Shown here in pieces: positions 12,901-63,640 of a DNA stretch of 64,000 bases. A model generated the notes under the pieces. It made no database searches, was not told the origin of the DNA, and saw nothing but the letters and a program-made list of their open reading frames with translations. Both the position numbers and the translations under genes were made by a program. The stretch spans positions 31,413,732 through 31,477,731 of the forward strand of contig CAIIXF020000001.1 of the NCBI GenBank assembly GCA_903813345.2, read 5' to 3'. The stretch's first letter is position 1, and each line of letters opens with the position of its first letter. This DNA comes from Owenia fusiformis. Its lineage: Eukaryota; Annelida; Polychaeta; Sabellida; Oweniidae.

Positions 12901-15900
12901 GGGGCTACTATAACATTCAACTGTCTTGTACTCTCACTGAATGTAGCGTTCAACGATGGTGTCAAAATCAAGCTTGGACGACAATGGATGAATAAAGTAA
13001 GTATAAAAGGACGGGTGTCACCTACCCTTTGCATTCGTTTGACTTCACTTCTTAAAAGAGAGCTTCGTCGTGTAGTTTAACTAGAATCTGCACGCAGGGT
13101 ATATGTGTCACCTAGGGAAGTCTAAAGCGTATAACAAAATACACTAAGGAAATAAGACTTAGAGCATAACCAGTCAAAAAGGAAACAAACCAACAAGCTA
13201 CAGTTATATAAAGAACAAAAGGTTGTAAAAATATCAACTGTGACAGATCACAAAAATAAACACTAGCTAGCTATCCCCATGTACGCGCGCATATAGGCAC
13301 ATACACACATGCACGTACATTTCAGTGGGTTATTATCATTTTGAAGTGGTCAATGAAAAAAGTCTTATTTTACTGTACAGACAAGTTTAAATATATAATT
13401 CCTGTATCAAATAAATGATCATTTACAATGTGTTTGTAAGTAAAAGCAAATTGCATAATCGATAGGTAATCATTGTAGATAGATGGTCTATGTAAGAATT
13501 TCGATGGAAATCAGACTAACGATTGTACAGTTGCGTCAGGTTCTGATATCACTACACAGCCAAACAAGGGCACGTTGCTAGGAGACAGTTATCAGGTGTT
13601 CGATCCAGAAGAGCCGATGTAAGAAAGCGTAAAGCCATACTTCTTTTGAGTTGTATGATATTTCGTAATTTTTATATGATTTATGAACAAATGTTAAAAT
13701 TTCAGGTGTAAGAGTAGTTTGGTGGATGATCTGCCAAACCAGTGTAAGGATGACAAAACATTGGAAGAAGCCAAAGTTGCATGTGAACTTGTAGTTGACC
13801 ATGAAGGTCCATTTGCTGATTGTGTAAAAAGGTACTCTAGATGACGAGATGTTTGTTACATATTCAATTGAAATCGTGATCATAAATTAGTTTACTGAGT
13901 TACTTCTTATTTCAGCGTATGCTTTCTCATATTGTAGAATGTCACGGGGATTTTTACAGAATTTTTTAGAAGATTGTAATGTAGACCACTGTGGAAATCA
14001 CGGGAATATATGTGACATTGCAGCGGCATTTGCCGATTTATGTAGGGAAAATGGTGTCGATGCGCCTTTGTGGAGGGACGTTTTCAACTGTCGTAAGTTC
14101 ATCTAAAAGCCCGAAAGAATCCAACAAAGTATTATTTGAAAAAAATGAAGGCATGTTTAAATACATGTATTTAAACAAGGTTTTATTGTACAATAAAACC
14201 TGTCAAATTCAAACCCCAATGAGCCCAACTAAAAGTATTCTGATCAGGAGGTGCTCACATTTCAAAGTTTTTGCATTTGCATTTTTGAGGAAACATGAAC
14301 ACAGTCTCTATAAATATTCATTGTTCTATTTACCACAAAGCTTTTAAAATGCTCGCAATTTACAATATTCGAACCGTAACACTTCTGACGTGATAGTCAA
14401 ATGTTTGCATCGAATCTCCTGTTGTCACTTTCCACAGTAATCGTACTAATGATCTTATTTTTGGTGAATCAATTTGAAGTACGAAGATGTGTAATGCTTA
14501 TAAAACAATTAAATTTTTATCTTAGAAATGAAATGCGGAGATAATGAAGAATATTTGGCTAATGGTCCAGGTTGTGAGAGGAAGTGTTTAGAGGGCGATC
14601 AGAGATACTGTAACACACCTAAAAGAGAAGGATGTTTCTGTAAAATTGGGTATATCAGATGTAATGGCACGTGTAGTATTGGTAAAGGTACGTTGAAATC
14701 AATTGATACTGATTTTGCAGACTTGAAAATGAGCTGCATATGCAAAACCTTCCAGGTCAAAATATTTTTTTTATATTCACGGTTACATGTGTTGCAGGAT
14801 CCCTTTGGATCATTGACATTTATTTGATCAAAATCCTGTTTTTAGATTATTGTTCTCTTTTTTGTAAGTAGTGATCTGAGGTTGCACTGAATCTAGTTGG
14901 GATATCTTTATAGTCAGGATCATTATTTGAGTTACTAGATGCATAACCAATTGTTTCAGATTACTGTCCGCCTAGTTCTGACCCAAGGTACAGGGCAACT
15001 GAAACGTGCTGTATGCATAGCTCCTGGCATTGGGCTCTTATTGATGGTAGCTACTTCACTCAGGACATTCGTGGTGGGGAGTTAGTAAAACATCTTTGCC
15101 CAAAGGGTCAAGTTTTTAAGGTGACCAGTCACAACGAATGCAAATGCATAAAGGGTATTTATAGTTTTAATAAGGATCTAGTCAAATAGTAAAAACATGA
15201 AATAAATTTTCCACTTAATCAAAAACGACATTTTTCAATATTGTCGTATAAGGTGCTGGTCCTTTTGACTATAGAGGACTCAGTAAGTAATTAATTACAC
15301 ATTCTATGTATAAAATACAATTTCTTGACTAATGTATCATTAATATATATTATATTTTTGATATCTTTTTAAGTGGCCCGAGTGGATGATAAAAGACCTC
15401 GAAAGTTTTGCACTTTTACATTGAGTTCCATGTTAATTGATCAATCTTCGAGTTTTTCGAGTGCAAATGAATAGCTCAATATATCGGATGACCCAACAAA
15501 TTTTGAAAAGTATTTTCTCGTCGACTGATGAATCAAATTCACTGAAAATGTGTACAAACTAGCTGAGTATCATTAGCAAGTTGTAAAATGTAAAAAAGAT
15601 CAAGTAAATAATCTGTGAGAACTAAGAAATTCCAAATAGCATGTCAAAAATTCCCTGGATAAAATAGGTCTAACTGGACTATATGGGAAGACAGTTGCCC
15701 ATCTTGCCCTAAGTCTTGTGGTGGTCTGTTACTTGTGCACAAACCAAGAGCGGAAATGGACAATATTGCACACCAACTTTTAAAAATATGTCCAAATTTG
15801 GTTATTAGTTCATCTAGATGTTTAATTTGCAGGCTGTAAATGGTCAAACTGGGCTACTTGGAGCGAAATCTGCCCATTCTGCCCTAAGTCTTGTGATGGT

Positions 15901-18900
15901 GGATATGTTACTTGTACACGTATCAGGACCAGACAAGGGCCATATTGCACACCAATATCACCTATATCAGAGAGTGAAACATCAACCAAAATATGTCCAA
16001 AAACATGTAAGAATTCAAAGACAAGAAAGTTGTCAATTAAATATCTCACTAAACAGAACTGGTTAGAAGTGCAGATCTTAACTGTTTTTGAAGTTCTGTT
16101 TATGTAACAAATGTGAGAAAATAAATTAATGATTTTGTTCTTTTCTGAGCTATTTGTTCAAACACACGTATATCTTCTTGGGCATATGCTACTGACACAC
16201 ATTTGTGATAAATATGCCGTGGGAATTCTGCCTACAAGTCGTGAGATAAGAAAAAGCAAAAATTGACCCTCGAGGGTCGGACACTTTTTTTATCGAACCG
16301 ATCCGTTTCAGTTAAAGTGTAATCGAGTGGAGTGCCAGTGCCATTTTGATAATGCACTAAGGCTTCACCTTCTTGCATTGTGTGAATAGTTTAATACATG
16401 CCTTCATGCTATCTAATTTGCAATATAAGATGATACAGGATTCTTTATTCGTTTTGTATGAATGGTTTCATTTCCTTAATCGTGTCATAATACCTGAGAA
16501 TCTCGTTCACTTTTCTTAACGCAACATTTGAAAGGGTCGACATGCCACCATACTCGACTAACTTGCATTGCTGTCGCTGATCTAAGTGTAAAACTTGCAG
16601 GTTGCTGGTCGAACTGGACTCCTTGGAGTGAAAGTTGCCCTTCTTGCCCTGGCTGTGGTGGAGGATCAGTAATATGCACACATACTAGTACTAGACAAGG
16701 ACAAAACTGTGCACCAAATGTTCAATTAGAAACTAAAGTTTCGACCAAAACTTGTTTGTCACCACCATGTATGTAATATTTCTTCTTTATCATTGAAAAA
16801 AATGTAAAAATGAATATAATAAGCCCTCTTTCCGGAATTCATACGGATTGGCGACATGAGTTGAATTATATCGGATGATATGTTTCATAATAGCTGAAAA
16901 TCTCGTTCATCGTATACTAGTAAAAGTTTCAATTACAAACTTATTAATCTTAGAGTTTACGTTGATCTACATGTAGATGTTCAATTTACAGGTTGTGCAT
17001 GGTCAACCTGGGCTACTTGGAGCGAGAACTGCCAATCTTGTCCAAACTCATGCGAAGGAGGATCTGTTACTTGTACTCGAGCAAGGACTAGGCAGGGACC
17101 ATATTGCACACCAAAGACTCAATCACAGAATGAAACATCAATCAAAATGTGTCCAAAGATATGTAAGTAGTGGAATGGGTGATAGGTGTTTTTCGTGCGA
17201 TGAAGTCTAAAAATTTTAATTGGTATAATCATTTAGGCCACCTAAAACTACATTTATTCATGAATTTTCAGTTTCCAATTTTTCAGCGTTAAGCGGCTGT
17301 TCCATTTTACCCCCCCTGAAAAACCAAAAGAGGGGTATGTATACAAATGCAGCCATTTCACCATTATACTTCGAGCAATTCTATTGAAAGTTCATGGGAA
17401 CATACATTGTATAATAGACATGTATCATGCAAAATATGAGTGTGAAAGCTCTACTTGTTGCCATGGTAACCACTCGTTGAATTATAAAAATGACTGAAAA
17501 AGGGCGATTTTCGTACATTTGGATTGCAGTAAACTGAACTTATCTTGTTGTAAGAGATTGATTGATCAGTCTAAATATGCTTAAAAACTTCCCAGATGTG
17601 TATGGTACAAATCTAGGGGAAAAGTAAATTTTTGGGATGTTTCTTATATTTTACATGATTTTTTTAATATGCATACCCCTATTCAGGATCCATATGTGCT
17701 TTTCTTGTCTGTAATGTCAAAAACATAGATATCTTCAATATTTCAAGTTGAATCTTTTCTTATATTATACTGGAAAGCTAAATGCATATTAATGAGATCC
17801 ATGGTCAGGATTAATGTAATATTTGTATCTGTTGCTCTGGTGACCACATATAACTATTAATTTTTCGCACATGTTCCATGTTAAATCGTGAAGACAGCAG
17901 ATTTCATCATTTCAGGAATATTTGTCTTGCATCATTACATACACAATACACAGAGTAAAAGGTCTAAAGAGGTACTATATCTAGTATACTTAGATGGGGT
18001 TTGTCATGACTGACTCTTCAAAATTGAGGTTTTAAAAAAAAGCACATGTAATGAAAAATCAGAAAATGGAACTTGTTACAAGATTAAGTTGAAAACAGGT
18101 AAAATGAACTAATAACATTTATGACATATTATTCTCTTACATCTGAAGAAATTGAAAATACATTAAAACATAAATTTTCAGAATAGTTTACCATGAAATT
18201 AAGATTAAACTGAAAAAGTAAATGTCAAACAATATATATTTCAGGGAAGCAATGAGTAAACGAGTCTTGAGAAAGCGTGTTGCACCTGCATCAGAGGCTC
18301 GCGGTGAGACATCTAGGCCAACATATCTGTTTTCCGATTCCAAATGTATTTTTTGTGATAAGACTATTAAATATCTGAAAAACAATAAGAAGGAATATCT
18401 TACACAATGTACTACAAAAATAACTAGAGCAACAATTAATCATGCTATGCATATAAGAGAGGATTGGAACTTAATTCGCAAAATTGGCGGACGTGATCTT
18501 CTGGCTGGAGAGGCTTATTTCCATCAGGCTTGCAAGCGCTCATATTGTGAACCTAAAATTGTTGGAAAACCTGAGGTAGATGACTATGGTGATTTAATTG
18601 AAAAAACTACAGGGACAAATGTCAAATTTGATGAAAAAGAACCAGAGGAATCCAATGACCCATCATTCACCTACATATGTGAAAGGATATCCGAAGACAT
18701 TATGCTTAGGAAGAATGTTGGTTCTCTTAATAACATTCACAAACAATATCAGACCCATAAACAAGAAAATGATCCCGTGAATTATCAAAAGGACTATCGC
18801 AGAAGTAGATTGAAATCTCGCTTGCAGTCTCATTATGGTAATAGAATAGTTTTACAGCCTGGTAAAAATGAGAAAGACATTTTGATTTATAGCTCAAGTC

Positions 18901-21900
18901 TAACTGTATCAGATATTGCCGACTCAGCTGCAATGGTAAATCAGACAAATGAACATGGATGCCTGCAGAAAGCAGCACATTATTTAAGAGACAAGATAAT
19001 TGCTGCTAGTGAAAACGTCTCTCCAACAAACTGGCCACCATCTGCTTCAGAATTATCAGCAAGTATGTTCCACACTATTCCACCAGAGTTGCAATATTTT
19101 CTTATACTTCTTCTATCAGGCAATGACACAAAAATGAACAATACAAAATATAAACGCTTGACTCATACCATAGGGCAAGACATTTGCTATGGTGCAACAA
19201 ATGGATCATTCAAAATGCCAAAACATTACTTGCTTGCGATAGCTATTCATCATCTTACAGGGAGTGCAGAGTTGATCACACTACTGAATCATCATGGCTA
19301 CTGCACCAGTTACACAGAGGTCCTAGAAATAGAGACTGCAATATGTGAAGAGATTAAACAGCAAGTGTCATCCTTACCACCATCAATATCCATTTTGTCA
19401 AACCAAGTTCTGATGTATTGCTTCGATAATTTTGATCTCAATGAGCAGACTCCCAGTGGTTCAGGAACTACACATTCTACCCATGGCATTGTCATTCAAG
19501 AACAGAAATCTGTGAATCCTCACTGTCATCAAGACACAGCTATGGAGGTTGACGCACATACAGAGTCTAGTGAAAGTCAAGGTCAGCTGGAGCCAATGGA
19601 TGATGATGGTGGTGATATTTCTTCAGAATCTCAAGGTGGTGTGCCAATCCTTCTACCTCAGTCAGATGAACATGTTGATGAAATTGTTGATTCTAGTGCT
19701 CAGCCTCCATCACTTGAACCAACTAAGGAACGCTACCCTAATGCAAGGAGATCAGTTAAACTGACAGAGGACATATTACCACCATGTTATGCAGTTAACA
19801 AAGCAGAACCACCTAAAGGGTTTGATGTCTTCACAATCTCAGAGGAAAGTGAGGTGGCATTAGCTAATGCTTCTAGAAGTGATCTGATGTGGATTTTGTG
19901 TCGTCATCAACAGTCAGAAAATCAGAGTGTCCCTAGCTGGGCAGGTTGGGTGTCACTAACAGGCAAGGGCTCAACTAATGTACCAGTTCAGTCTGTTATA
20001 GACTATCTTCCTCCAATAAACCACCCAATAACTGAGAATGCTACAGTTCAAGAGTGCCTGAATATTGCTATGCAAGGAACAGCTGAGGTGGGCCAACATT
20101 ACACATTAGTAACATTTGATCTGGCAGCAGCCAAAAAGGCCCTGAACATTGTATGGCAATTTCAAAAATACTGTACTGTGATAGTAATGTTAGGTGTTTT
20201 CCATTCGCTGTGTTCTTATTTCTGCACCATTGGAAAATTTGTGAGGGGCTCTGGTTTTGAAGAGATACTGCTTGAATCAGAAATTTGTGCTAGTGGATCA
20301 TTAGATGCAGTCCTTAATGGAAAAAATTACAACAGAAGCCTGAGAGTTCACAAGATAATGTATGAAGCACTGGAACGTATGTTGTTGGAGAAATTCCAGC
20401 AGGAACACCAACTAAATCCAGCTGCAAAGAAGAAACTTCAAGATCTAGCTGAAAACCTAAATGAAGAGCTTCTGCAGCAATCCCTCTCTGATAAAGATGT
20501 TAGTGAATTCTGTCAAAAATTCTTCCAGTTCAAAATGGACATCAGACAAGGGAAAATGGGTAAAACTCCACAGTTTTGGGTCCAGTACAGTGATATGGTT
20601 GGCACTGCACTTCAGTATATCCGTGCCACAAAGGAAAATGATCTCAACCTCCACATTGGAGCACACTCAGCCATGAATAGTGCATTCTTTGCCATGGACC
20701 ATCAAAATTATGCCAGATTTCACTGTTACCAATTTCTCACCCTTCTCAACCTGGATAAGAGACATCCTGGTGCAACAGAGCTCATCTCAAACAATGGATT
20801 CTCTGTTTCAAGATCAGATGTATCATGCTCACGAAATCCTGTGGACATTACCATAGAACAAACTATCAATTGCAATGCAAAATCTAAAGGTGGTATTGTT
20901 GGTTTCAGTAGGAACAAGGGTGCATATCAGCGCTGGTGCGTTACACGAACACAGAGAGGACTGTATACAGAGGCTGCCCTTGATATAGCTGGAATGAGAG
21001 ACTCAGACGATATCCTCCATAGAGACAACTCATTAGCCCAAGTAACAACATCTGAAGCTGGTGTAAAGTCAGTAATGCAGGCATTCAAAAGCTTCATCAA
21101 CCCATTTGACATCAATGAGCCTGCTCTTCACTGTGTATCATCTGGTTTGCCAGCCCCAGCAGAAGTTCAAGGGCTGACTGATGCATTACAGAAAGGTTAC
21201 CAAGCAAGTGAACAATTCATTGATAGACTGAGAGATCAAAACTCAGAACTTAAGTTTCACGATAGCATAAAAAAGATGAAAGTCGCAACATTTGCAAATT
21301 CTGCTGTGACCAAGAAGATGACAACTTCAAAAAATAAGGTTGTTGAAATCAGCGCCACAAGAAACCTATTTGGCCAACTACTTAATGTATCTCAAAACAG
21401 TGAGATTAGTCTTGAGAGGCTCATGGGATATTGCATGGGTCCTGTTCCTTGGCCTCTTGCCCTACCTGATGGCTCTCTAGCAAAAACACCAAAGTCAACA
21501 CTCATTCATGAGCTGCAAGGGAATGACAGTATTCCATCTCCCCCATCTGAATCAATAACTATCTTGGATGGAAATATGAGTTTCTATCAAATGGAAAAAA
21601 TAGCACCAACATTTGGTAAAGTTGCAAGAGACATATTCACACGCTTACCAAAATCCAAGAACGTACATTTTGTAACCGATTCCTACCATGAAAACTCCAT
21701 TAAAGATCTTGAGAGAAACAAAAGGGGGCAGTCAGATCCAATTATCCTGAAGGGAGCCCACACTAAAACCCCATCAAAATCATGGAATAACTTCCTAACA
21801 TGTGGCAAAAATAAAGAGGAACTTATCAAGTTCCTGTTACGTGAATGGCAAACCAAGAAGTATGCCAGTAATCTGAAGGGAAGAAACATCTACTTCTCAG

Positions 21901-24900
21901 ACCAAGAGAATACAATTCTACTCACAAGTGATGGTGAAAAGGTTTATACTTCCCCAGTAAATGACCTAGCATCTAACCAAGAAGAAGCAGATACAAAGAT
22001 AATTCTTCACATGCTGTTCGCTGCAAGACATGGAAAACCAGTAATTGTTCGATCCCTTGATACCGATGTCTTTCTAATACTCCTAAGGTATGCTGACAGG
22101 GTCGATGTACCGATATATTTTGACACTGGAAAAGGAGATGGGCGTCGCCTCCTTGACATCCAAGCAATAGCCTCCCGCCTGGGCCAGCAACTTTGTGAAG
22201 CACTGCCCAGCTTCCATGCTTTCACGGGGTGCGATAGCACTAGTGCATTCATTCGCAGAGGCAAGATAAAGCCACTCAAAATTCTTACCAGAGGTCCTCC
22301 AGATGAAAGGAATCGTTTCCTGAAACTGTTTACTACAATGGGAAATACTGTTGAGGTTACCAACCAAATGGAATCTACTGCTGAGGACTATGTTTGCAAA
22401 ATGTACTCTAGAAAAACCAAGCTAAGGAACATCAACAAACTTCGCTATGAACTATTTCAACAAAGATATTCCCCCAAGAAATCAGGAGATGCTTTGACTT
22501 ACGATGGAACTGACTTGTCACTGTTACCCCCCTGTAGAGACTCTATAATTCAAAAGTTGAAAAGGAGTAACTATCAAAGCTATATCTGGAAACAATCACA
22601 CATTGCTGTCAGTGAACTCCCAAATGCCACGTTGCATGGCTGGCAACTTGATACCAATGGTAACATTGAGCCACAATGGTCTAGTTTACCCGTCTTACCA
22701 AAAGACCTTGTAGATCTGCTTGATGAGGTTGCTGAGCCTATTGTACTTGAAGATGCAGACTTCTTGGGAAGTGTTGAGGGTGGAGATGTTCTAGACAGCT
22801 AGAAAAGAAAAATGACTATAAACATGTTAAACTTCAAAACAATGCTAATGGAGGTAAATTTGTACTCTCATACTGTTTTGTGACATTCTCCATTTAATAT
22901 GTGGTTACCATAGCAACAGTTACAAAATTTTTTCTGAAGTGTATCTTAGCTCCTCACTGTAGATTGAGTTTTCCTATTAATTATTCAGTGAAATATTGGT
23001 GATAGCCTACATAGTATACTATAAGAAACTCATTTTGACATTTTAATAGACATTGGAGAAATAATCAATTTCTCGTCTTGAATGAGGGTATGAGTATTAA
23101 AAAAATCATGTAAAATATAAGAAACATCCCAAAAATTTACTTTTCCCCTAGATTTGTACCATACACATCTGGGAAGTTTTTAAGCATATTTAGACTGATC
23201 AATCAATCTCTTACAACAAGATAAGTTCAGTTTACTGCAATCCGAATGTACGAAAATCGCCCTTTTTCAGTCATTTTTATAATTCAACGAGTCGTTACCA
23301 TGGCAACAAGTAGAGCTTTCACACTCATATTTTGCATTATACATGTCTATTATACAATGTATGTTCCCATGAACTTTCAATAGAATTGCTCGAAGTATAA
23401 TGGTGAAATGGCTGCATTTGTACACATACCCCTCTATTGGTTTTTCAGGGGGGGTAAAATGGAACAGCCGCTTAACGCTGAAAAATTGGAAACTGAAAAT
23501 TCATGAATGGATGGAGCTTTAGGTGGCCTAAATGATTATAACAATTAAAATTTTTAGACTACATCGCACGAAAAACACCTATCACCCATTCCACTAAAGG
23601 ATTGTTCCTTAACATTATCAGATTTAAATGAGAGAAAATATTCATAAGTATTTTATTAAACCAGACGTGTTCCAAAAATAGTTACCTTTATTGTTGAAAT
23701 GTCAGTTTAATGTACATGTAAACTAAACTTGTTCTGTGTCCAAGTTCTTGTAAATAAAGTTCATGCATGTCGACTTATTCTCAACTAATATAGCCAATAT
23801 GGCTAATTTAAAGTTTCAACTTGCAGGTTGTTGGTCAAACTGGGCTTCTTGGAGTGAGAATTGCCCTTCTTGCCCTGACTGTGGTGGAGGATCGGTAATA
23901 TGCACACATACTAGGACTAGACAAGGACCAAACTGTGCACCAAATGTTCAATTAGAAACTAAAGTTTCGACCAAAACATGTTTGTCACCACCATGTATGT
24001 AATGTTTCTTCTTTATTATTGAATACATTTGTAAAAAATGAATATAATATGCCCTCTTTCCGGAATTCACACGGATTGGTGACATGAGTTGAATAATATC
24101 GGATGATGTGTTTCATAATAGCTGAAAATCTCGTGCATTGTATACTAGTAAAAGTTTCAATTACAAACTTATTAATCTAAGAGTTTGCGTTGATCTACAT
24201 GTGGATGTTCCATTTGCAGGTTGTGCATGGTCAACCTGGGCTACTTGGAGCGAGAACTGCCAATCTTGTCCCAAGTCATGCGAAGGAGGATCTGTTACTT
24301 GTACTCGAGCAAGGACTAGGCAGGGACCATATTGCATACCAAAGACTCAATCACAGAGTGAAACATCAATCAAATTATGTCCAAAGATATGTAAGGATTG
24401 TTGCTTAACATTATCAGATTTAAATGAAAGAAAATATTCATAAGTATTTTATCAAATCAGACGTGTTCCAAAAATAGTTACCTTAAGTTCATTGTTGAAA
24501 TGTCAGTTTAATGTACATGTAAACTAAACTTGTTCTGTGTCTAAGTTCTTGTAAATAAAATTCATGAATGTCGACTTATTCTCAACTAATATAGCCAATA
24601 TGGCTAATTTAAAGTTTCAACTTGCAGGTTGTTGGTCAAACTGGGTTTCTTGGAGTGAGAATTGCCCTTCTTGCCCTGACTGTGGTGGAGGATCAGTAAT
24701 ATGCACACATACTAGGACTAGACAAGGACAAAACTGTGCACCAAATGTTCAATTAGAAACTAAAGTTTCGACCAAAACTTGTTTGTCACCACCATGTATG
24801 TAATGTTTCTTCTTTATTGTTGAATACATTTTTAAAAAATGAATATAATATGCCCTCTTTCCGGAATTCACACGGATTGGCGACATGAGTTGAATAATAT

Positions 24901-27900
24901 CAGATGATATGTTTCATAATAGCTGAAAATGTCGTTCATTGTATACTAGTAAAAGTTTCAATTTCAAACTTATTAATCTTAGAGTTTGCGTTGATCTACA
25001 TGTAGATGTTCAATTTGCAGGTTGCGCATGGTCAACCTGGGCTACTTGGAGCGAGAACTGCCAATCTTGTCCCAAGTCATGCGAAGGAGGATCTGTTACT
25101 TGTACTCGAGCAAGGACTAGGCAGGGACCATATTGCATACCAAAGACTCAATCACAGAGTGATGCATCAATCAAAATATGTCCAAAGATATGTAAGGATT
25201 GTTGCTTAACATTATCAGATTTAAATGAAAGAAAATATTCATAAGCATTTTATCAAATCAGACGTGTTCCAAAAATAGTTACCTTTATTGTTGAAATGTC
25301 AGTTTAATGTACATGTAAACTAAACTTGTTCTGTGTCCAAGTTCTTGTAAATAAAATTCATAAATGTCGACTTATTCTCAACTAATATAGCCAATATGGC
25401 TAATTTAAAGTTTCAACTTGCAGGTTGTTGGTCAAACTGGGCTTCTTGGAGTGAGAATTGCCCTTCTTGCCCTGACTGTGGTGGAGGATCAGTAATATGC
25501 ACACATACTAGGGCTAGACAAGGACCACACTGTGCACCAAATGTTCAATTAGAAACTAAAGTTTCGACCAAAACATGTTTGTCACCACCATGTATGTAAT
25601 GTTTCTTCTTTATTATTGAATACATTTGTAAAAAATGAATATAATATGCCCTCTTTCCGGAATTCACACGGATTGGCGACATAAGTTGAATAATATCGGA
25701 TGATATGTTTCATAATAGCTGAAAATCTCGTTCATTGTATACTAGTAAAAATTTCAATTACAAACTTATTAATCTTACAGTTTGCTTTGATCTACATGTA
25801 GATGTTAAATTTGCAGGTTGTGCATGGTCAACCTGGGCTACTTGGAGCGAGAACTGCCAATCTTGTCCCAAGTCATGCGAAGGAGGATCTGTTACTTGTA
25901 CTCGAGCAAGGACTAGGCAGGGACCATATTGCATACCAAAGACTCAATCACAGAGTGAAACATCAATCAAAATATGTCCAAAGATATGTAAGGATTGTTG
26001 CTTAACATTATCAGATTTAAATGAAAGAAAATATTCGTAAGTATATTATCAAATCAGACGTGTTCCAAAAATAGTTACCTTAAGTTCATTGTTGAAATGT
26101 CAGTTTAATGTACAGTCCATCTTTTAACGAAAGTGTCACTTTGCCGTCCGCCGTACACTCCTTTGCCGTGCGAGTGCGATACCCTTGTTTTACTTGAGCG
26201 GCGCGGTCGCTTCGCGTGTGTGACTACCTCGCGTTTACCTTGCTTTGCGACAGGACTTAACCCGCGAACCGTTCGTGCTTACACAGTGTTGCCTTCGCTC
26301 AACGATTGTATACGCATATTAATTAAACTAAACCTACATTATTTTTCATTTACATATGTAGTAGAGACTATATTAACTCAACTTTCAGACAAGATTTTAG
26401 TGTTGCGTTTTTCTCAGTTTCAATGAATATTTGATTCGTCTAATCTGTTTTGAAAAAGAATACAATTAAAGTGATTACGGATCATTCCATTTCACATTGG
26501 TCCAGTGGCACACATGTACAAACATTTGAAGCAGTTGTATACGCTTTTCGGTGATTTAATTTTTTTTTAAATTACGTTTATTAATAAGTCGACAGGAATG
26601 TTACGCCTATTCTTCTTACAGTAGTTTCGTGCGCGTGTGTACAGTCCCGGAGTAGTTTTGATGAATTAACCTTTTTGGGGGGACGTGCTCTAGTTGCACT
26701 CCGGCCTTCAATACTACATCATACACGGCCGGTCGGCTCTGACGAAACCCAGAGCAATATAGCAACCATGTTACAGTCTGAATCCACTTTTCTGGCTCTA
26801 AACAAGCCATTTGAGAAACTGCATTAATCGGTCTATAATTCTGCAATTTGTCGTCGGAATTCTTAATAAATAACACCATGGTTAAGCTCGGAACGATAGC
26901 TTCCCGATGGTAAAAAAAATAAATTGAGGGAGGGACAGGAAACCCAGGGGTTCATATTTATTATATGTTCACGTACAAGTTCTCTAAAATACGTGTACAT
27001 GTAGCTAGCCTCTCTGTTTCTACGTACACAACATCCTGTAAATGCACAAACTGTACAAAGAATATCCAAAGAAAATCCTATATAACATCCATAGTAAGAA
27101 CAATGTAAAGTATTTTCCATAAATAAGGGGTTTAAATTTAGTGACATGACATATGTTGTCATAGATATAGTTTATTTCTACTCCCGGGCACAAGGGCCGA
27201 TTACAGCTTGAAATTGTGAAATTGCAACAGACACAATTACGTACATTATGTATCTATGTAATTATGTACAACAGTACATAATTTCGGCAATAGCAAATAC
27301 ACCAAACGTGTGAATTTAATAACTACATTATGATATTCTGTCTCGATATTCTGTATTGGCACTCGACTTCGTCTCGTTCCAATACGGAATTTCTCGAGCA
27401 GAATATATCCTGTATTGCACTTCAAATCATTCAATAACTTTTAATATTATTTACATCCAAAACGTATCGTTCTTACTCTATTGATTCACAACAAGCAAAT
27501 CTAGGGAGTATCACAAATAAAACAAGCATTTCCTCGCGTGCATTTAACTTCTACAGTGAGTAATTATATGTACTCCCGTGGGTTCTCAAAGTTTCACTTA
27601 TTTTAGGCACCCCCCCCCCTGGCCAAAAACTCTTTCAAAATCATGCAGTTTTTCATAATTCTGACCATTTTTCGTGTGATTTTGGGTCAAATTTGCAAAA
27701 TGAAGTCTTCGAATGAACATTCATTTGCCATGATAACCACCGAGATGCAATGGTCAACTTTTGCTTTTACGTTTAATTATAATCAACGCCTTCTCTAAAT
27801 TTCTTGTTAGATCATGAATGCCTGACTTCACCAAGCATTTAAATTATATTTTGCGTTTTATCATCTTTCCCAAAAGCTACAATTCATGCATATGGTACAA

Positions 27901-39900: not shown

Positions 39901-42900
39901 ATAAACACATAATAAGTGAATAACCTGAGTACAAAAACCGTCGGGCTATGTCCCATTGCCCAGCTTATGGACAACTACCAATTATATTTCATTTCACAAA
40001 CGATCGGACACATTTTTTGTAGTAGAAGGACTATACCATCTCACCACACTCGGTGTTCCAAACATTTCTTTTCAGCGTGCCGAATATATATTCAACAATC
40101 TTTTTCTGCCGACCCGGCAATACAAAAATATATACACTTTATAAACCTTTGGAGATAAACACTCACTCCGATTCATACTTTAAAAACAACGCATTTACTC
40201 ACAAACGACCAACCAAACCAGGTTTCCCCAATCGGGAACCCTATTCAGAATAAACAACCCATTCTTAAAGAACAATGGAAATAAAACACAAACATATACA
40301 ACAAACTATCTAACACATTACCCGTGCATCATATAAAACACATTTCAACAAACAAAACAAACGAAACAAATTTTAACAAACAAACCGACCATATCGTGAT
40401 ACAATTAACCAAAACGCATACACCATCCCGACAAAACACAAACAGGATAATCAAAACATAATGAAATCACAAGAAGACAGCCTCCAAATTCAAGTTAATA
40501 TCTCAACAACAAGAGATGCTACTATCATAACAAACACACCGAAATAAAGTTTAGACATGACACTACACACCCAAACCGTTGAAAAACAACTTACCTACCA
40601 TTTACTTACCAAAAAACGCCACAAAACAAACACGAAATTTACAACCCAAAATACCACAAAACTCCGATAAAACCAAAATACAACCAATCGCGAACAAGCT
40701 AACAACTCCCCCAACGCACACATCGTATCAAAATAAAAACACCTCGCCATAAAGGGTAAACAACAAACCAAACAAACAAAACAAATTAAAAGAAACAAAC
40801 TGACCGCAACTTGATGCAATTAATCAATACGCTACACGATCCCGACAAACCACAAACACAGGATAATCAAAACATAATGAAATCACGGGAAGACAGCCTC
40901 CAAAACCAAATTAATATCTCAACAACAAGAGATGCTACTACCATAACACACACACCAAAATGAACCTCAGACATGACACTACACACCCAAACCATTGAAA
41001 AACAACTTAGCCACCACATAGATACCACAAACGCCGCCAAACATACACGAAATTTACGAACCAAAATAATGCAAAACTTCGATAAAGCCAAAATACAACC
41101 CAGCACGTCGAAATAGATCCCCTAGTCAAGTTAATATCTTGACAATAAGATATACTACCACCACTACACACAGACCAACACGTAGCTCAAACACCAGACT
41201 AAACACCCAAACCTTTAACAAACGGGGAACCCACCACAAACTCACACTACACACATCCAAATGCTACTAAAGACGAACGAATTTACAACTCTTCCAATAT
41301 ATCTACCATCAACATAAAAGATTCACCACCATACATGAAACTTAAACACAAAACCAAAACCACAACTTTTCTTAACCAAAAATTATCTCTAACACAACTG
41401 AATGATCGGGATGTCCAGCCTATCTCTACATTAATGAAGACTGCAGGAAATGACACACAGATGTCATAACCCTAGGATCAACCAATCTACCTGTCACATA
41501 AATACTGACGGTGGTTTGGGGAAGCTTAGCTACTAGACCTTGTCTCCCAGACCCCTCGACCGAGACCTCTCACCATTAACACAGACTGCATGACATGTGC
41601 GGGTGATGTCTCAAGCCATTGTCGAAGTCACCACTCCCGAAAACCAGCCTGGCGCAAGAGTTTAATTTGTCATTTCAGGACGAAATTTTCAGAATTCACG
41701 ATGTAGATACGCTAACGCGTGGCCTTTTTTGATGAAAACAATTTCATTGGTAAATAGTTGTTATTGTTCGCATGCAGTATCTGTTAATTTCATGTAAATT
41801 CATCGCATTGATTAAATTCAGGATCCAATAAATATATGTGCATTTATACTGTACTGTGGTTAAATGGGAACAGATGATTCAAAAAGCATTTTGAAAAACA
41901 CTTTGTTAAATTATTTGTTTTCGTCTAAAGCGACTCATTTAGAGTCTTATAAATTGTATAATATAATGTGATGTACATGGGGAGCAAACATCTACATTCA
42001 TCAGATGTTTATCGGGATGAGGAAGAGAGCTAAATATCCTCTGGAAATGAAAGATCGTGTAATTTAACGTTGAAAGATAATAATGGTTTTAAACCTGATT
42101 TACCATTCGTCCATCGGGTAAGTAAATGGAATCTAAAACACTTAACTACATGAAATTATAATGTGGCGTCCGTGCAACGAATGGTGAGCGAAAGCTACGC
42201 GAATAAACCAACTCCGCTGTACATATGAAATCACCCCGCGATGAGCTTGAAGCGCACTCGTGACGCGCCCGCGGTGACCACGAAAAGCGTTCGAGTTGAC
42301 CACGAAATTCGGGCGGCATGCCGACGACATGGCATGGTGTAAGGCGTGCCATTAGACGTACTGTACCAGGTCGTTCAATAAGTTCTCATAATTTTGCTCT
42401 CATTTTAAGAGTTTTTTATATTTTTCCATGAAAATTTTACAGACGATGCAGAATGTATCTGTGTAACAACCCTGCAAAAATTAAGTTTTAATTCTAATGG
42501 TCGTGAAAATGGCGGTTGTTATAGTAACATGAAAAATGGGTAGGCGGGGCAGATTATTTGATGTCATAGTGGCATATAATTCAGTTCAACATTGTGGAGA
42601 GTAACAAGTGTTTTAATGTCATGTAGTCCCATTTATCCCATGAAATAGTATGGGGTAAATGTTTCTATTCCTACTTTAAATGCTCAAAATAATGTCCATT
42701 GGATGCGACACACTTTCGATGACGTTCTACCCAATCCTGGAAGATTTTATGGAATCCATCAGGAAATCTAGCTCTGAGAGCATTTTGGACTGCATTCTGC
42801 AAATCTTCTTTCGATGCAAATCGAAAACCTCTCAGCTCATCTTTCATTGGGCCAAACACGCCAAAGTCGCATGGGGCTTCATCAGGTGAATATGGTGCCT

Positions 42901-45900
42901 GTGGGAGAACTTCCATTCCGAGTTCTCCTATGGTGTTCAGTACAACTTCTGCCCGGTGACACGGGGCATTATCCTGATGAAATATTCTTGTCGCCAACTC
43001 TAGGAGGGGGCGTTTCTTTGAGAAGGCCCGTTTGAGATGCCTCTTGAGAACCTGAAATAGTCAGTAGGATAGGATACTAATGCCTTTAACATTTGTACTT
43101 AACCATTTTTATAGTTCAAATCTGATTTTAAATTTGATTTGATTTAATGTTTTTACTCTTATATTGATTAATTAATTAATAATGAATAAGCTTACCATTG
43201 CATAATAGTCCTTGTTTATTCTCTGACCATCAGGAATTGCATGCGTAAGCAGCACCCCAGAGCTATCCAAAAACACAATGAACATCACCTTGCCGTCATT
43301 TTTGGTCAGTTTTGCCAGGGTTGAAATGGGAGTAGGTGAGTTCTTAGTTCTCCAACCACTTGATGCTCTCTTCCCAAGGGGCTCATAATAGCTGACGTAC
43401 ACCTCGTCGCATGTGATAATTCGTTGAAGAAAACTATCCCCTTCATCTTGGTATCGTCTTAGAAATTCTTGGGAAACCTCAACTCTGCGGGCTCTCTGGT
43501 CACTAGTTAACTCCTTTGGCACCCATTTAGCACACATGAGGTTCATTTTAAGCTTCTCTTTCAGAATGAAGTGTGTTCTACCTATACTAATGTTCACATT
43601 CTCACTAAGTTCCCGTACAGAGATGCGGCGATCATCATCTAGAACTGTCTTAACTCTTTCAACAGCCTTTGGGTTGGTGACTTTTACCGGTCTGCCAGTC
43701 CGTTTTTCATCCATCACAGATTTTCTTCCCTCTGAACCAAACCTTTGATACCATTGGTATATGGTAGGTGTGCTCATTAACTCCTTTCCATAAATATCTT
43801 GAACTGCTTTTATTGTTTCTCCTCTTGATTTCTTGGATAACACACAAAATCTTATCACACTACGGATTTGAATTTGAATTTCATCTTGACTTTTCACAAG
43901 ACCACAGTCAGCTGCCATCTTGGGTCTCTCTATTGAAACCTTTTCTGTGATGTCATACCTTTTTATGTGATGTCACAGTAATAACTATACTCAGAAAAGT
44001 TGCATCTTTCACACTGATGTCAAAACCTGTTTCTATGGTTGCAAATCTTTCAGATAAAACATATGACATTTCAAGATGAAATCTAACTACATCCATGGAT
44101 TTTACGATCAAATAAAGTTGCCCCGCCTACCGATTTTTGACGTTACTATAGCAACCGCCATTTCCACAACCATTAGAATTAATACATAATCTTTGCAGAG
44201 TTGTTACACAGATACATTCTGCATCGTCTGTAAAATTTTCATGGAAAAATATAAAAAACTCTTAAAATGAGAGCAAAATTATGAGAACTTATTGAACGAC
44301 CTGGTACATGTAAACTAAACTTGTTCTGTGTCCAAGTTCTTGTAAATAAAGTTCATGAATGTCGACTTATTCTCAACTAATATGGCCAATATGGCTAATT
44401 TAAAGTTTCAACTTGCAGGTTGTTGGTCAAACTGGGCTTCTTGGAGTGAGAGTTGCCCTTCTTGCCCTATCTGTGGTCGAGGCTCAGTTATATGCACACA
44501 TACTAGGACTAGACAAGGACAAAAATGTGCACCAAATGTTCAATTACAAACTGAAGTTTCAACCAAAACATGTTTATCACCTCCATGTAAGCAACGCGTT
44601 CTACTTTTTTATTAGAAAAATGTAAATATCCTAACCCCCCCCCCCCTCCTCTCAATTCATATGAATTGGTGATTAGAGATGAATTGCATTCCCTGACATG
44701 TTTCATAATAACAGAAAATCTTGTTTATTCTTCTTTACTAGTAAACATTGTAAAATCAAGATGTCCATTTGGTTATAAGTTCATCTAGATGTTAAATTCG
44801 CAGGCTGTGTAAGGTCAAACTTGGCTAACTGAAAAATCTTGTTCATTGTTATTTACCAGTACCAGTGGTTTTGAATTAATGGTATATGCTCAATCTGCAG
44901 GCTGTGAATGGTCAAACTGGGCTACTTGGAGCGAGAATTGCCCATCTTGCCCTCCGTCTTGTGGCGGAGAATCTGTTACTTGTACCCGTACTAGGACCAG
45001 ACAAGGGCCATATTGCACACCAAAATCTCAATCAAAGAGTGAAACATCAACCAAAATATGTCCTATGATATGTAAGATGTGTTGCATTACATTATAATCT
45101 GTAAAATAAAGACAACGTTTGTTTCAACTACATGAGATATGGAAATGCGAGTACACAATACATGTGTTCTTTATTACTTAGAGGCAGAATCAGATATATA
45201 GGGGATGACAAAATTGCAATTAACATTTACCATTAGCCCACAAATTAATAGTACATATTGTTTATTTATATGATAAGGGCCTTCATTTCCATAATATCTC
45301 GTACGTTCCGAGAATGTCGTTCATTCTTTCTTCACACTATTCTATACAGTCGACGTATACTCTACTGAGATAGTCTAAATTGCTTATATAAAGTATCAAT
45401 TTGCAGGTTGTTGGTTAACCTGGACTTCTTGGAGTGAGACTTGCCCTGATTGCTCAAGCTGCGGTGGAGGATCAGTAATATGCACACATACTAGGACTAG
45501 ACAAGGACCAAACTGTGCAACAAATGTTCAGTTAGACACTAAAGTTTCGACCAAAACATGTTTGTCACCACCATGTATGTAATGTTTCTTCTGCGTTATT
45601 GAAAAAATATGTAAAAATGAATAAATATGCCCCCTTTTCATAATTAGCACGAAGTTGAGAAATGTTGAATGATATGCTTCATAATAGCTGGAAATCTCGT
45701 TCATTGTTCCTTACTAGTTTTAATTTTTACCTTATTCACATTAACGTTTGCGATGATCTAGATGCTTAATTTCCAGGTTGTATATGGTCACCCTGGGCTA
45801 GTTGGAGCGTGAATTGCCCATTTTGTCCCAAGTCCTGTAGTGGAGGATCTGTAAGTTGCACTCGAGCAAGGACTAGACAGGGACCATATTGCACACCAAC

Positions 45901-57096: not shown

Positions 57097-59210
57097 GCCC
57101 GGACAGAATTGTTCAATGGTCACTTTTTCTTTAATAACTTTTTTCAATTTTCAGAATTATCCAAAACTAATTACATATTTGAAAACTAAAAAACAAAAAA
57201 AACATTTAAGGAACATCTCTTAATTTATTGATATTATAGGAGTTCAAAGTATGAGTGACGCAAATGCATAATTCATCATTTTGTCTCATATTTGTTCAAA
57301 AATGGCAGCATGTTTCGTGAATTTGAATGTTGAGTTGAAAGTTAATTTTATAAAATGTCATATGCCTATGGGCATCATGCTGCCATCATTACAGTTCTGA
57401 TGGATCCATGAAATATTGCAACTGGCCAATAATCAAATAAAAGAAGTCAAACTATGGAATTTTTTCTGCATCTTTATTCGATTTTCACACTTTTGTATTT
57501 GATTACAACCATTCGATATTCCAGTCTATTAAAATGATTCGAAACACGTAATAAATTTGTTTGTTTTTACACATTTATATTTGATTTATGTACCTATATA
57601 TGCGGTAAATGCACTTGTATATGCGGTTTATGTTATTCAGTGTTTGGTAAAATATCACATATTTAAGTCCATGTACACACACGAACAAAGACAGTTGACA
57701 CATATATTTAGAACACGCATCAAATACAAATACACTTTAGAACCAAACAATGTTCATTTACCGAACAATCATAGAGTACAAAATAGCACGGACATATAGT
57801 GACTTACCCCACATAATTAATGACATGTTTCGCATAAAATTATGTGGGGTAAGTCACGTGACTTACCCCACATAAATGACACATGCATGTAGCATAAAAC
57901 CATTCGGTAAATCACGTGACCAGTGACGTAGAAATTTCAAAATGGATGAAACAAGCGAGGAAAAAGAATTTGAATACGATTCATATTCACAATCCAGAGA
58001 GGAAATTGAGAAGTTATTAAATCATTACAACAGGCATGAGGCTACATAAGTGATCCTTTGTTAATAGAAGATACGTTTTCGCGATTGGAGAATCACACCA
58101 GAGCTCTTTGAATATATAGATGGCGAAAGTCACATGGTCGAAGTCACGTGACTTACCCCACATCAAAACAGTGAACAATGGTTTATATAAAATCATTCGG
58201 TAAGTCACGTGACTTACCCCACAAATGAATATGTTTAGCACAAATGAATATGTTTACCCAATACGAATGGTACTTGGCATCGCACATATTTAAAATACTT
58301 ATCAAATTTATATTTGATCGGGTCGAATACACTTTTGAAGCATCTTACATATTTGTTGTGTAAGACAGTCAATTATATGTGGGATAGTAGGTACTGTTTG
58401 TTGTAACTGGTTTTGTTTATGTTCGGTTTAACTTACTCCGTGGGGTAAAAACCGAAGATATTAATGTTACGAATATTGATGCAATAAATACACTATATCA
58501 AACTCCCTGCAAATGATCTTGAACTCAGCTCTACTGCAATGTTCGGCGGTTGTGTTCAAGAGGATGTTAAAAGCTGAACCCTAATGTGCGGGGTTTGATG
58601 AGACTGAGATTAGGTTCCCAATCTTTTCAAGAGGCCTAAACAGCCATCTCAGAGGCCCTTGAAAAGCTCAAGAACAATTCACATGCATATAAAGATGGGC
58701 CGGGAGGTGTTTGACTGGAAAAGTCGTTCAAAACGATGGAAGTATGACTCTATAGCTGCACGGGTTAAACTAGGGGTAACAATGGAATGGCCGAAAAACG
58801 TTGCCCTGCAACACTTCCAATATAGAGTACAATACAATATACGAACTTTTTCAAGTGTACATACAATTCAATTTAAAACAAAAGGTTTTAAATGCACCCA
58901 AAATAGCAGTCTACTTGACTTCATAGGCCTATGACATTTCTTGAATATTAGCTTTTTCAACTGAACATTCAAATTCACAAAACATGCAGCCATTTTTGAA
59001 TGAAGATGAGGCAAAATGATGAATTATGCATTTGCGTCACTCATACCATAAACGCCTATAATATCAATAAATTAAGAGATATTCCTTAAATAATTTTTGT
59101 GTATGTCAGAATTTTACTCTAGTGTTCAAATATGTAATCGGTTTTTGATAGAACTGAAAATTGAAAAAGTTATTAAAGAAAAAATGACCATCGAACAATT
59201 CTGTCCGGGC
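57097..59210. mobile_element. TIR element (2114 bp), TA target site, nested
   Basis: Arms of about 250 bp: gcccggacagaattgttc and its complement, with TA at 57095-57096 and 59211-59212. The middle has no transposase-like ORF. It contains the palindromic CACGTG repeats at 57.8-58.2 kb. Confidence 0.8.
57799..58225. repeat. Palindromic repeats around GGTAAGTCACGTGACTTACC
   Basis: A perfect 36-bp palindrome spans 57840-57875. Shorter palindromes with the same core lie at 58141-58154 and 58199-58218, and a diverged one near 57911. In addition, 57800-57855 forms a hairpin (gacttaccccacataatt / aattatgtggggtaagtc) with a ~19-bp loop. The core CACGTG is the classic E-box, but a regulatory role here is speculation. 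Confidence 0.8.
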
Positions 59211-61319: not shown

Positions 61320-63640
61320 CCCAGCTAACAATTTTACGTTGTGATAACGTCGTCAGAATATATGTCTCAAGTTGTAGCAACGTTAATATGGAACGTTGTA
61401 GGTACAGGAAGGTGTGGACTCGCACAGATGTTTAAAGAACGTTACATTTGACTTAAATATCACGTGTCAGGAACGTAGTAGCGACCTTAACAATTACGTC
61501 GCCAAAATAACGAAACTGTAACGTACTTACATTACGTCATATATACGTGGCCAATCTTAATTTCTGGTAACGTTGATATGGAACGTTGTAGGTACAGGAA
61601 GGTGTGGACTCGCACAGATGTTTAAAGAACGTTACATTTGACTTAAATATCACGTGTCAGAAACGTAGTAGCGACCTTAAAAATTACGTCACCAAAATAA
61701 CGAAAATGTAACGTACTTACATTACGTCATATATACGTGGCCATTCTAAATTTCTGGTAACGTTGATATGGAACGTTGGAGGTACAGGAAGGTGTGGACT
61801 CGCACAGATGTTTAAAGAACGTTACATTTGACTTAAATATCACGTGTCAGGAACGTAGTAGCGACCTTAACAATTACGTCGCCAAAATAACGAAACTGTA
61901 ACGTACTTACATTACGTCATATATACGTGGCCAATCTAAATTTCTGGTAACGTTGATATGGAACGTTGTAGGTACAGGAAGGTGTGGACTCGCATAGATG
62001 TTTAAAGAACGTTACATTTGACTTAAATATCACGTGTCAGAAACGTAGTAGCGACCTTAACAATTACGTCACCAAAATAACGAAAATGTAACGTACTTAC
62101 ATTACGTCATATATACGTGGCCATTCTAAATTTCTGGTAACGTTGATATGGAACGTTGTAGGTACAGGAAGGTGTGGACTCGCACAGATGTTTAAAGAAC
62201 GTTACATTTGACTTAAATATCACGTGTCAGGAACGTAGTAGCGACCTTAACAATTACGTCGCCAAAATAACGAAACTGTAACGTACTTACATTACGTCAT
62301 ATATACGTGGCCAATCTAAATTTCTGGTAACGTTGATATGGAACGTTGTAGGTACAGGAAGGTGTGGACTCGCATAGATGTTTAAAGAACGTTACATTTG
62401 ACTTAAATATCACGTGTCAGAAACGTAGTAGCGACCTTAACAATTACGTCACCAAAATAACGAAAATGTAACGTACTTACATTACGTCATATATACGTGG
62501 CCATTCTAAATTTCTGGTAACGTTGATATGGAACGTTGTAGGTACAGGAAGGTGTGGACTCGCACAGATGTTTAAAGAACGTTACATTTGACTTAAATAT
62601 CACGTGTCAGGAACGTAGTAGCGACCTTAACAATTACGTCGCCAAAATAACGAAACTGTAACGTACTTACATTACGTCATATATACGTGGCCAATCTAAA
62701 TTTCTGGTAACGTTGATATGGAACGTTGTAGGTACAGGAAGGTGTGGACTCGCATAGATGTTTAAAGAACGTTACATTTGACTTAAATATCACGTGGCAG
62801 AAACGTAGTAGCGACCTTAAAAATTACGTCACCAAAATAACGAAAATGTAACGTACTTACATTACGTCATATATACGTGGCCATTCTAAATTTCTGGTAA
62901 CGTTGATATGGAACGTTGTAGGTACAGGAAGGTGTGGACTCGCACAGATGTTTAAAGAACGTTACATTTGACTTTAATATCACGTGTCGGGAACGTAGTA
63001 GCGACCTAAACAATTACATCGCCAAAATAACGAGACTGTTACGTACTTACATTACGTCATATATACGTGACCAATCTAAATTCCTGGTAACGTTAATATG
63101 GAACGTTGTAGGTATAGGAAGGTGTGGACTCGCACAGATGTTTAAAGAACGTTATATTTGACTTAAATATCACGTGTCAGGAACGTAGTAGCGACCTTAA
63201 CAATTACGTCGCCAAAATAACGAGACTGCAACGTATTTACATTACGTCATATATACGTGGCCAATCTAAATTTCTGGTAACGTTGATATGGAACGTTGTA
63301 GGTACAGGAAGGTGTGGACTCGCACAGATGTTTATTAAACGTTACATTATTTTGACTTAAGTTTTACGTGCCAGGAATGTAGAACCAACTTTAACAATGA
63401 CTTCGCAAAAATAACGAAACTGTCATGTACTTATGCAACGTCACATATACGTGCCCGGTTTAAAGTTCTGGTACGTTAATTATGGAACGTTGTAGGTACA
63501 GGAAGGTGTGGACTCGCACAGATGTTTAAAGAACGTTACATTTGACTTAAATATCACGTGCCAGGAATGTAGTAGCAACCTTAACGACTTTGCCAAAATA
63601 AAGAGACTGTAACGTTCTTGTCACATACATGGCCAATTTT
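61320..63640 (+). repeat. 190-bp satellite array, ~12 units, with 380-bp higher-order pattern
   Basis: The string gaacgttg recurs at 61391, 61581, 61771, 61961, 62151, 62341, 62531, 62721, 62911, 63101 and 63291, exactly 190 bp apart, then near 63485. Units alternate between form 1 (caggaacg, cgtcgcc, gaaactg, ccaatct) and form 2 (cagaaacg, cgtcacc, gaaaatg, ccattct) for eight units. The last four are form-1-like and increasingly diverged. The 5' edge starts cccagctaacaattttacgt, resembling ends of non-autonomous transposons known in marine invertebrates, so the array may lie inside one. Frames in it are repeat translations. Confidence 0.93.

Follow-up and report, generated by a model that had tools for sequence, protein, structure and literature searches.

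The 64,000-nucleotide stretch of Owenia fusiformis DNA analysed here (the window) carries at positions 17168–23596 a complete DNA transposon of 6,429 bp, which we regard, with a probability of about 0.85, as an autonomous and recently active element of the AcademX type. In its one large protein, a transposase of the cut-and-paste kind appears to be combined with a nuclease that cuts flaps, and the element can be considered a well-preserved, young and possibly mobile addition to a known, little-studied class. The features of the element and its surroundings are collected in Table 1. The inverted arms are 521 nt each and 97% alike, with 16 mismatches. When the flanks of the element are joined, they match three neighbouring repeat units of the host at 93–95% across undisturbed AAG sites, and the presence of these three uninterrupted paralogous sites confirms the edges of the element. 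A preliminary description had placed the transposon at the same positions, with nearly identical arms of ~520 bp, an AAG duplication and an empty paralogous site fixing the ends, and a fully open frame of 1526 codons; all of this is borne out, with three empty sites rather than one.

Table 1. Features of the transposon and its insertion site (positions are those of the window)
Feature	Position	Strand	Remarks
Host TSP1-like exon upstream of insertion	16994..17162	+	predicted exon end
Donor-like gtaag	17163-17167	+	directly before element
Target-site duplication AAG, left copy	17165..17167	.	bases +3 to +5 of probable host intron
Left terminal inverted repeat	17168..17688	+	begins TAGTGGAATGGG
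Single ORF, 1,526 aa, without stop	18222..22802	+	alternative start at 18252
N-terminal Cys/His motif C42-x2-C45 ... H101-x2-C104	18345..18533	+	candidate zinc-binding, common to relatives
Candidate DDE (RNase H-like) transposase core: D402, D633, H661, D875, E879	19425..20858	+	from conservation
FEN/XPG-like nuclease domain: D1116, D1153, K1161/R1165/R1168, E1255, D1257, D1280, D1282, D1338	21474..22346	+	
Right terminal inverted repeat	23076..23596	-	ends CCCATTCCACTA
Target-site duplication AAG, right copy	23597..23599	.	
Uninterrupted paralogous target AAG	24393..24395	+	further ones at 25194 and 25990

The insertion is probably intronic, since the element adjoins a splice-donor-like GTAAG and lies just behind it. 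Fifteen repeat units of the host with the pattern CxWSNWATWSENCPSC...RTRQGP...C were compared, leaving aside a weak match at 15651–15800 and short fragments. In all 15 units an in-frame TGT follows the last shared cysteine and reads as T|GT plus a donor-like stretch, a count that is partly made by construction, because the script sought such a codon; the stretches are GTAAG (8), GTATGT (5), GTGAG (1) and GTAATC (1), and AG precedes the start of each unit. A stop follows two codons later in all five units with GTATGT, and an exon end at this point is therefore favoured, whereas the K-x-C-C similarity that runs past it in five units (24138, 24939, 25735, 44873 and 50754) speaks against it. At the insertion the donor reads GTAAGT, and in the empty paralogues GTAAGG. 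The donor seems to be still usable, because the duplicated bases stay in place, and the insertion may be tolerated by the host gene. A reading in which the first codon of the element, TAG, truncates a coding exon was dropped after the comparison of the 15 exon ends. By residue pattern only, the host repeats look like TSP1, and the host is probably a repeat-rich animal gene. Among the 12 of 15 exon units scanned for a TSP1 profile, the best relevant Pfam match had an E of 0.17 (TSP1_CFP_C, in 3 of the 12), and the best relevant PDB match of the host units was the netrin receptor UNC5D at E 0.65, behind ferritin at 0.42; two further scans brought up no relevant match. Thus, of the earlier statement that the element lies inside a TSP1 gene, the TSP1-like pattern of the repeats stands, while the site is probably in an intron and no significant TSP1 profile match was obtained.

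At the local base composition, a frame open over 1,526 codons is expected by chance with a probability of ~1e-47 per given frame. Translation may begin at the second ATG, a start proposed because L013, a relative with 48% identity, begins nearby. The Cys/His N-terminus reported previously is present in the protein and in its relatives, and is a candidate zinc binder. Neither the window protein nor the family profile gave a significant match in Pfam or PDB, and no full-protein relatives were found in viral contigs and phage records. A protein search of the genome, in which 31 of 1,072 first-look candidates were scored, revealed among those scored numerous divergent relatives whose open frames are long. 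The longest protein from each of 14 relative loci was aligned with the window protein, and to these were added proteins of 2,621, 1,784 and 2,069 aa from three genomic loci listed by a search with Pfam DUF6589. All three of the added proteins matched the family profile, and two of them, L031 being the exception, showed the DUF6589 match as whole proteins. Among a set of 12 proteins, DUF6589 was the sole significant Pfam family, in three relatives and under Pfam's cut-off. The final alignment comprises 18 proteins, the window protein and 17 relatives that are 16–48% identical to it, with near-identical sets among the relatives (L014/L015 and L017/L019/L020). The ends of these two sets are obscured by adjacent insertions and a minisatellite; L017, L019 and L020 have a 49-bp tandem-repeat array 3' of the transposase ORF, with ~24 units in L020.

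The acidic columns of this alignment that have an entropy under 0.5 and hold 14 or more residues are D402, D633, D875, E879, D1116, D1153, E1255, D1257, D1280, D1282, D1338 and D1511. Eleven of these 12 strongly conserved residues fall in two sets, a candidate DDE set and a flap-endonuclease set, the remaining one being the C-terminal D1511, and the window copy has all 11. D633, H661, D875 and E879 occur in 18 of 18 proteins and D402 in all 15 that reach its column; D402 is the better first DDE residue, because D405 is replaced by G in two relatives. The DDE set may be catalytic, as judged from this conservation. No transposase profile in the Pfam and PDB searches matched the proteins, and a single-sequence AlphaFold model of the DDE region was unusable (mean pLDDT 37.1). 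The central candidate DDE region proposed earlier therefore holds as a conserved residue set across 18 proteins, and lacks a transposase profile match. One of the relatives, the 2,069-aa protein L033 (1967–8176 of G000:C11:19949000–19958900), has, after the first candidate DDE residue and before the second, a domain of the OTU cysteine-protease family (E 2.7e-7); a literature search combining OTU cysteine protease, DNA transposon and transposase turned up only a Helentron paper.

The nuclease of AcademX elements is of the XPG type. In the window protein and its relatives, the acidic set noted in the preliminary description (D1116, E1255, D1257, D1280, D1282 and D1338) is conserved and D1153, which had been missed, belongs to it as well; D1116 is E in one protein (H33) of the 17 reaching that column. 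A profile built from 17 rows of the nuclease region, of which the program retained 13, was compared with one of 16 flap endonucleases, phage T5 D15 among them, giving a probability of 90%, a score of 52.7 and an E of 1.6e-6, and the alignment places D1116, D1153, E1255/D1257 and D1280/D1282 on D26, D68, E128/D130 and D153/D155 of T5, ending before D1338. As controls, 100 column shuffles scored at most 19.7, two other regions of these proteins 14.4 and 11.3, and the reversed profile 11.4. An initial HH-align test, run against phage FEN sequences that formed a shallow and near-identical set, gave a weak match (probability 5.7%, score 26.6); the second, more diverse set was picked after this weak result, and a different realign option was used. 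The XPG similarity claimed previously was accordingly found by profile comparison, and the homology of the region to flap/5' nucleases is real at this level. A Pfam XPG_I search of the genome gave four matches, with 10 of 10 candidates scored, and none of these was one of the present proteins; a single-sequence AlphaFold model of the nuclease region was also unusable (mean pLDDT 33.7). The acidic residues of the window protein follow the order found in FEN/XPG 5' nucleases, of which phage T5 D15 is an example, but here the nuclease is joined to a candidate transposase. None of the DNA-binding elements of FEN enzymes was recognised in the window protein.

A DNA search of the whole genome (498 Mb, 525 contigs) listed seven long copies including that of the window, as well as some pieces at 65–90% identity. 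The preliminary description had suggested counting the copies and comparing their ends, and six of the seven terminate exactly at TAGTG/CACTA and are flanked by 3-bp target-site duplications (AAG, TAC, TGA, TAG, AAA and GTA). In the C11 copy (L002, G000:C11:18485458–18491874) the duplication is unreadable, because 12 bp of the right end are lost and the copy lies inside a tandem array of ~128-bp units. The idea that this copy had inserted aberrantly, duplicating 34 bp of flank, was rejected, as both flanks are the same ~128-bp repeat. The six contiguous copies differ pairwise by 0.17–0.97%, with 96 private substitutions against three shared variable sites, and such a star-like pattern is as expected of a recent burst. 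Fourteen of the 16 arm-to-arm differences of the window copy recur in L001, so most of the arm divergence predates the burst. No non-coding derivatives of the window family were seen among the matches listed, and distant end fragments (L009–L012, 69–73% identity) showed no paired ends within the short stretches fetched. An isolated 262-bp internal fragment, 99% identical to the element, lies at G000:C6:19108700–19108961.

These copies also bear on the most serious competitor of the favoured reading, a minority view that nevertheless carries real weight, namely that the window copy is young yet inactive, its frame open only through the short time elapsed and the element silenced or one of its residues faulty. 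Few copies were found in the genome and four of the seven are already broken, one by a stop (L002), two by indels (L004 and L005) and one, the C3 copy, by being split with ~400 bp missing. Against this, the frame is intact in the window copy, L001 and L003, the window copy keeps both acidic sets entire, and comparison of the three intact copies gives a dN/dS below 1 (0.29–0.49), a ratio drawn from just 8 to 16 changes per pair. The element may be mobile at present. The C3 copy (L006/L007, G000:C3:10060934–10065318) is interrupted by another apparent DNA transposon, whose ends are CAGTAGAGATG and which has a duplication of 5 bp (TAGCT).

A sister family is represented in the same genome by L013 (C2:26424508–26431111), whose 1,429-aa frame encodes the protein with 48% identity to that of the window. 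Both elements have terminal TAGTG (TAGTG...CACTA in L013) and a 3-bp duplication (TTG in L013), and they differ in their ends, those of L013 being 674 bp long and 98% alike. A DNA search with L013 gave 248 matches, with 40 of 221 candidates scored, and many of these were ends at 76–78% identity. Three ~4-kb elements carrying L013-family termini (L130, L131 and L132) have ends of ~1,010 bp (92% alike), termini TAGTGCAGTC, and the duplications TTA, GAT and TAG; read in their entirety, these derivatives contain no frame above 140 codons. A 3-bp duplication was therefore seen in four of the six sister-clade loci fetched (L013 and these three), and the ends of L128 and L129, two closer relatives of L013, were not resolved. 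A C-terminal Cys-rich tail is present in 11 of 13 other relatives, L023 and L026 ending before its position, and is absent from the window protein and L013; nor was such a tail seen when the following 300 bp were translated in three frames.

As to classification, one report (PMC10045372) gives target-site duplications of 3–4 bp for AcademX and 9–10 bp for AcademH, a difference in length which seems related to the encoded nuclease and helicase. The window element agrees with AcademX as described there in its 3-bp duplication, its apparent transposase-plus-nuclease plan and the absence of a detected helicase (searched up to E 5, Pfam gave no helicase for the window protein), a likeness drawn from the published description. 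AcademH, with its helicase and 9–10 bp duplication (PMC10045372), differs from the 3 bp seen here. Membership of AcademX is thus supported by architecture and duplication length as set against that description, and the Academ-like label of the preliminary description fits in these features, while as a name it holds by description only. An intact Academ element is in itself unsurprising, because bivalves are reported to have undergone an expansion of Academ elements, for which 100 consensus elements were curated (PMC10294476). It is improbable that another DDE superfamily gained a FEN-like domain independently and became Academ-like by convergence. Such a history would agree with the weak Pfam DUF6589 match in three relatives, and the AcademX likeness comes from a description rather than from a reference Academ sequence; the combination of 3-bp duplication, transposase and nuclease is nonetheless the one reported for AcademX (PMC10045372). 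There is next to no chance that the similar copies stem from segmental or assembly duplication instead of transposition, for although several are more than 99.5% identical, the 400-bp flanks show no similarity between any two copies (E 1e-3), and six of the seven end precisely at their termini with a 3-bp duplication of their own.

For an active AcademX-type element, the protein would bind the long inverted ends via its N-terminal Cys/His motif and neighbouring regions, and the RNase H-like DDE core (D402, D633 and E879) would cut and join the DNA, with insertion through a 3-bp staggered cut. The C-terminal FEN/XPG-like nuclease may process ends, flaps or the gap. We suggest very tentatively, and consider it rather doubtful, that the FEN-like domain is essential for strand cutting or flap trimming, so that two different nuclease active sites would work in one polypeptide. 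Such a mechanism predicts that both residue sets are conserved in relatives 16–48% identical, as is seen. To our knowledge, no Academ-type transposase has been biochemically characterised. The three intact copies with exact ends, together with a sister family that has non-coding derivatives, lend themselves well to a two-component transposition assay, and the two-nuclease mechanism, if true, is directly testable with the near-identical intact copies.

Elsewhere in the window, positions 61365–63568 hold a tandem array of 190-bp units in 11 register-matched copies. In addition, inverted-repeat pairs at 42362–44308 and 57186–59109, with arms of 190 and 155 nt lying ~1.6 kb apart, are possible small transposons.
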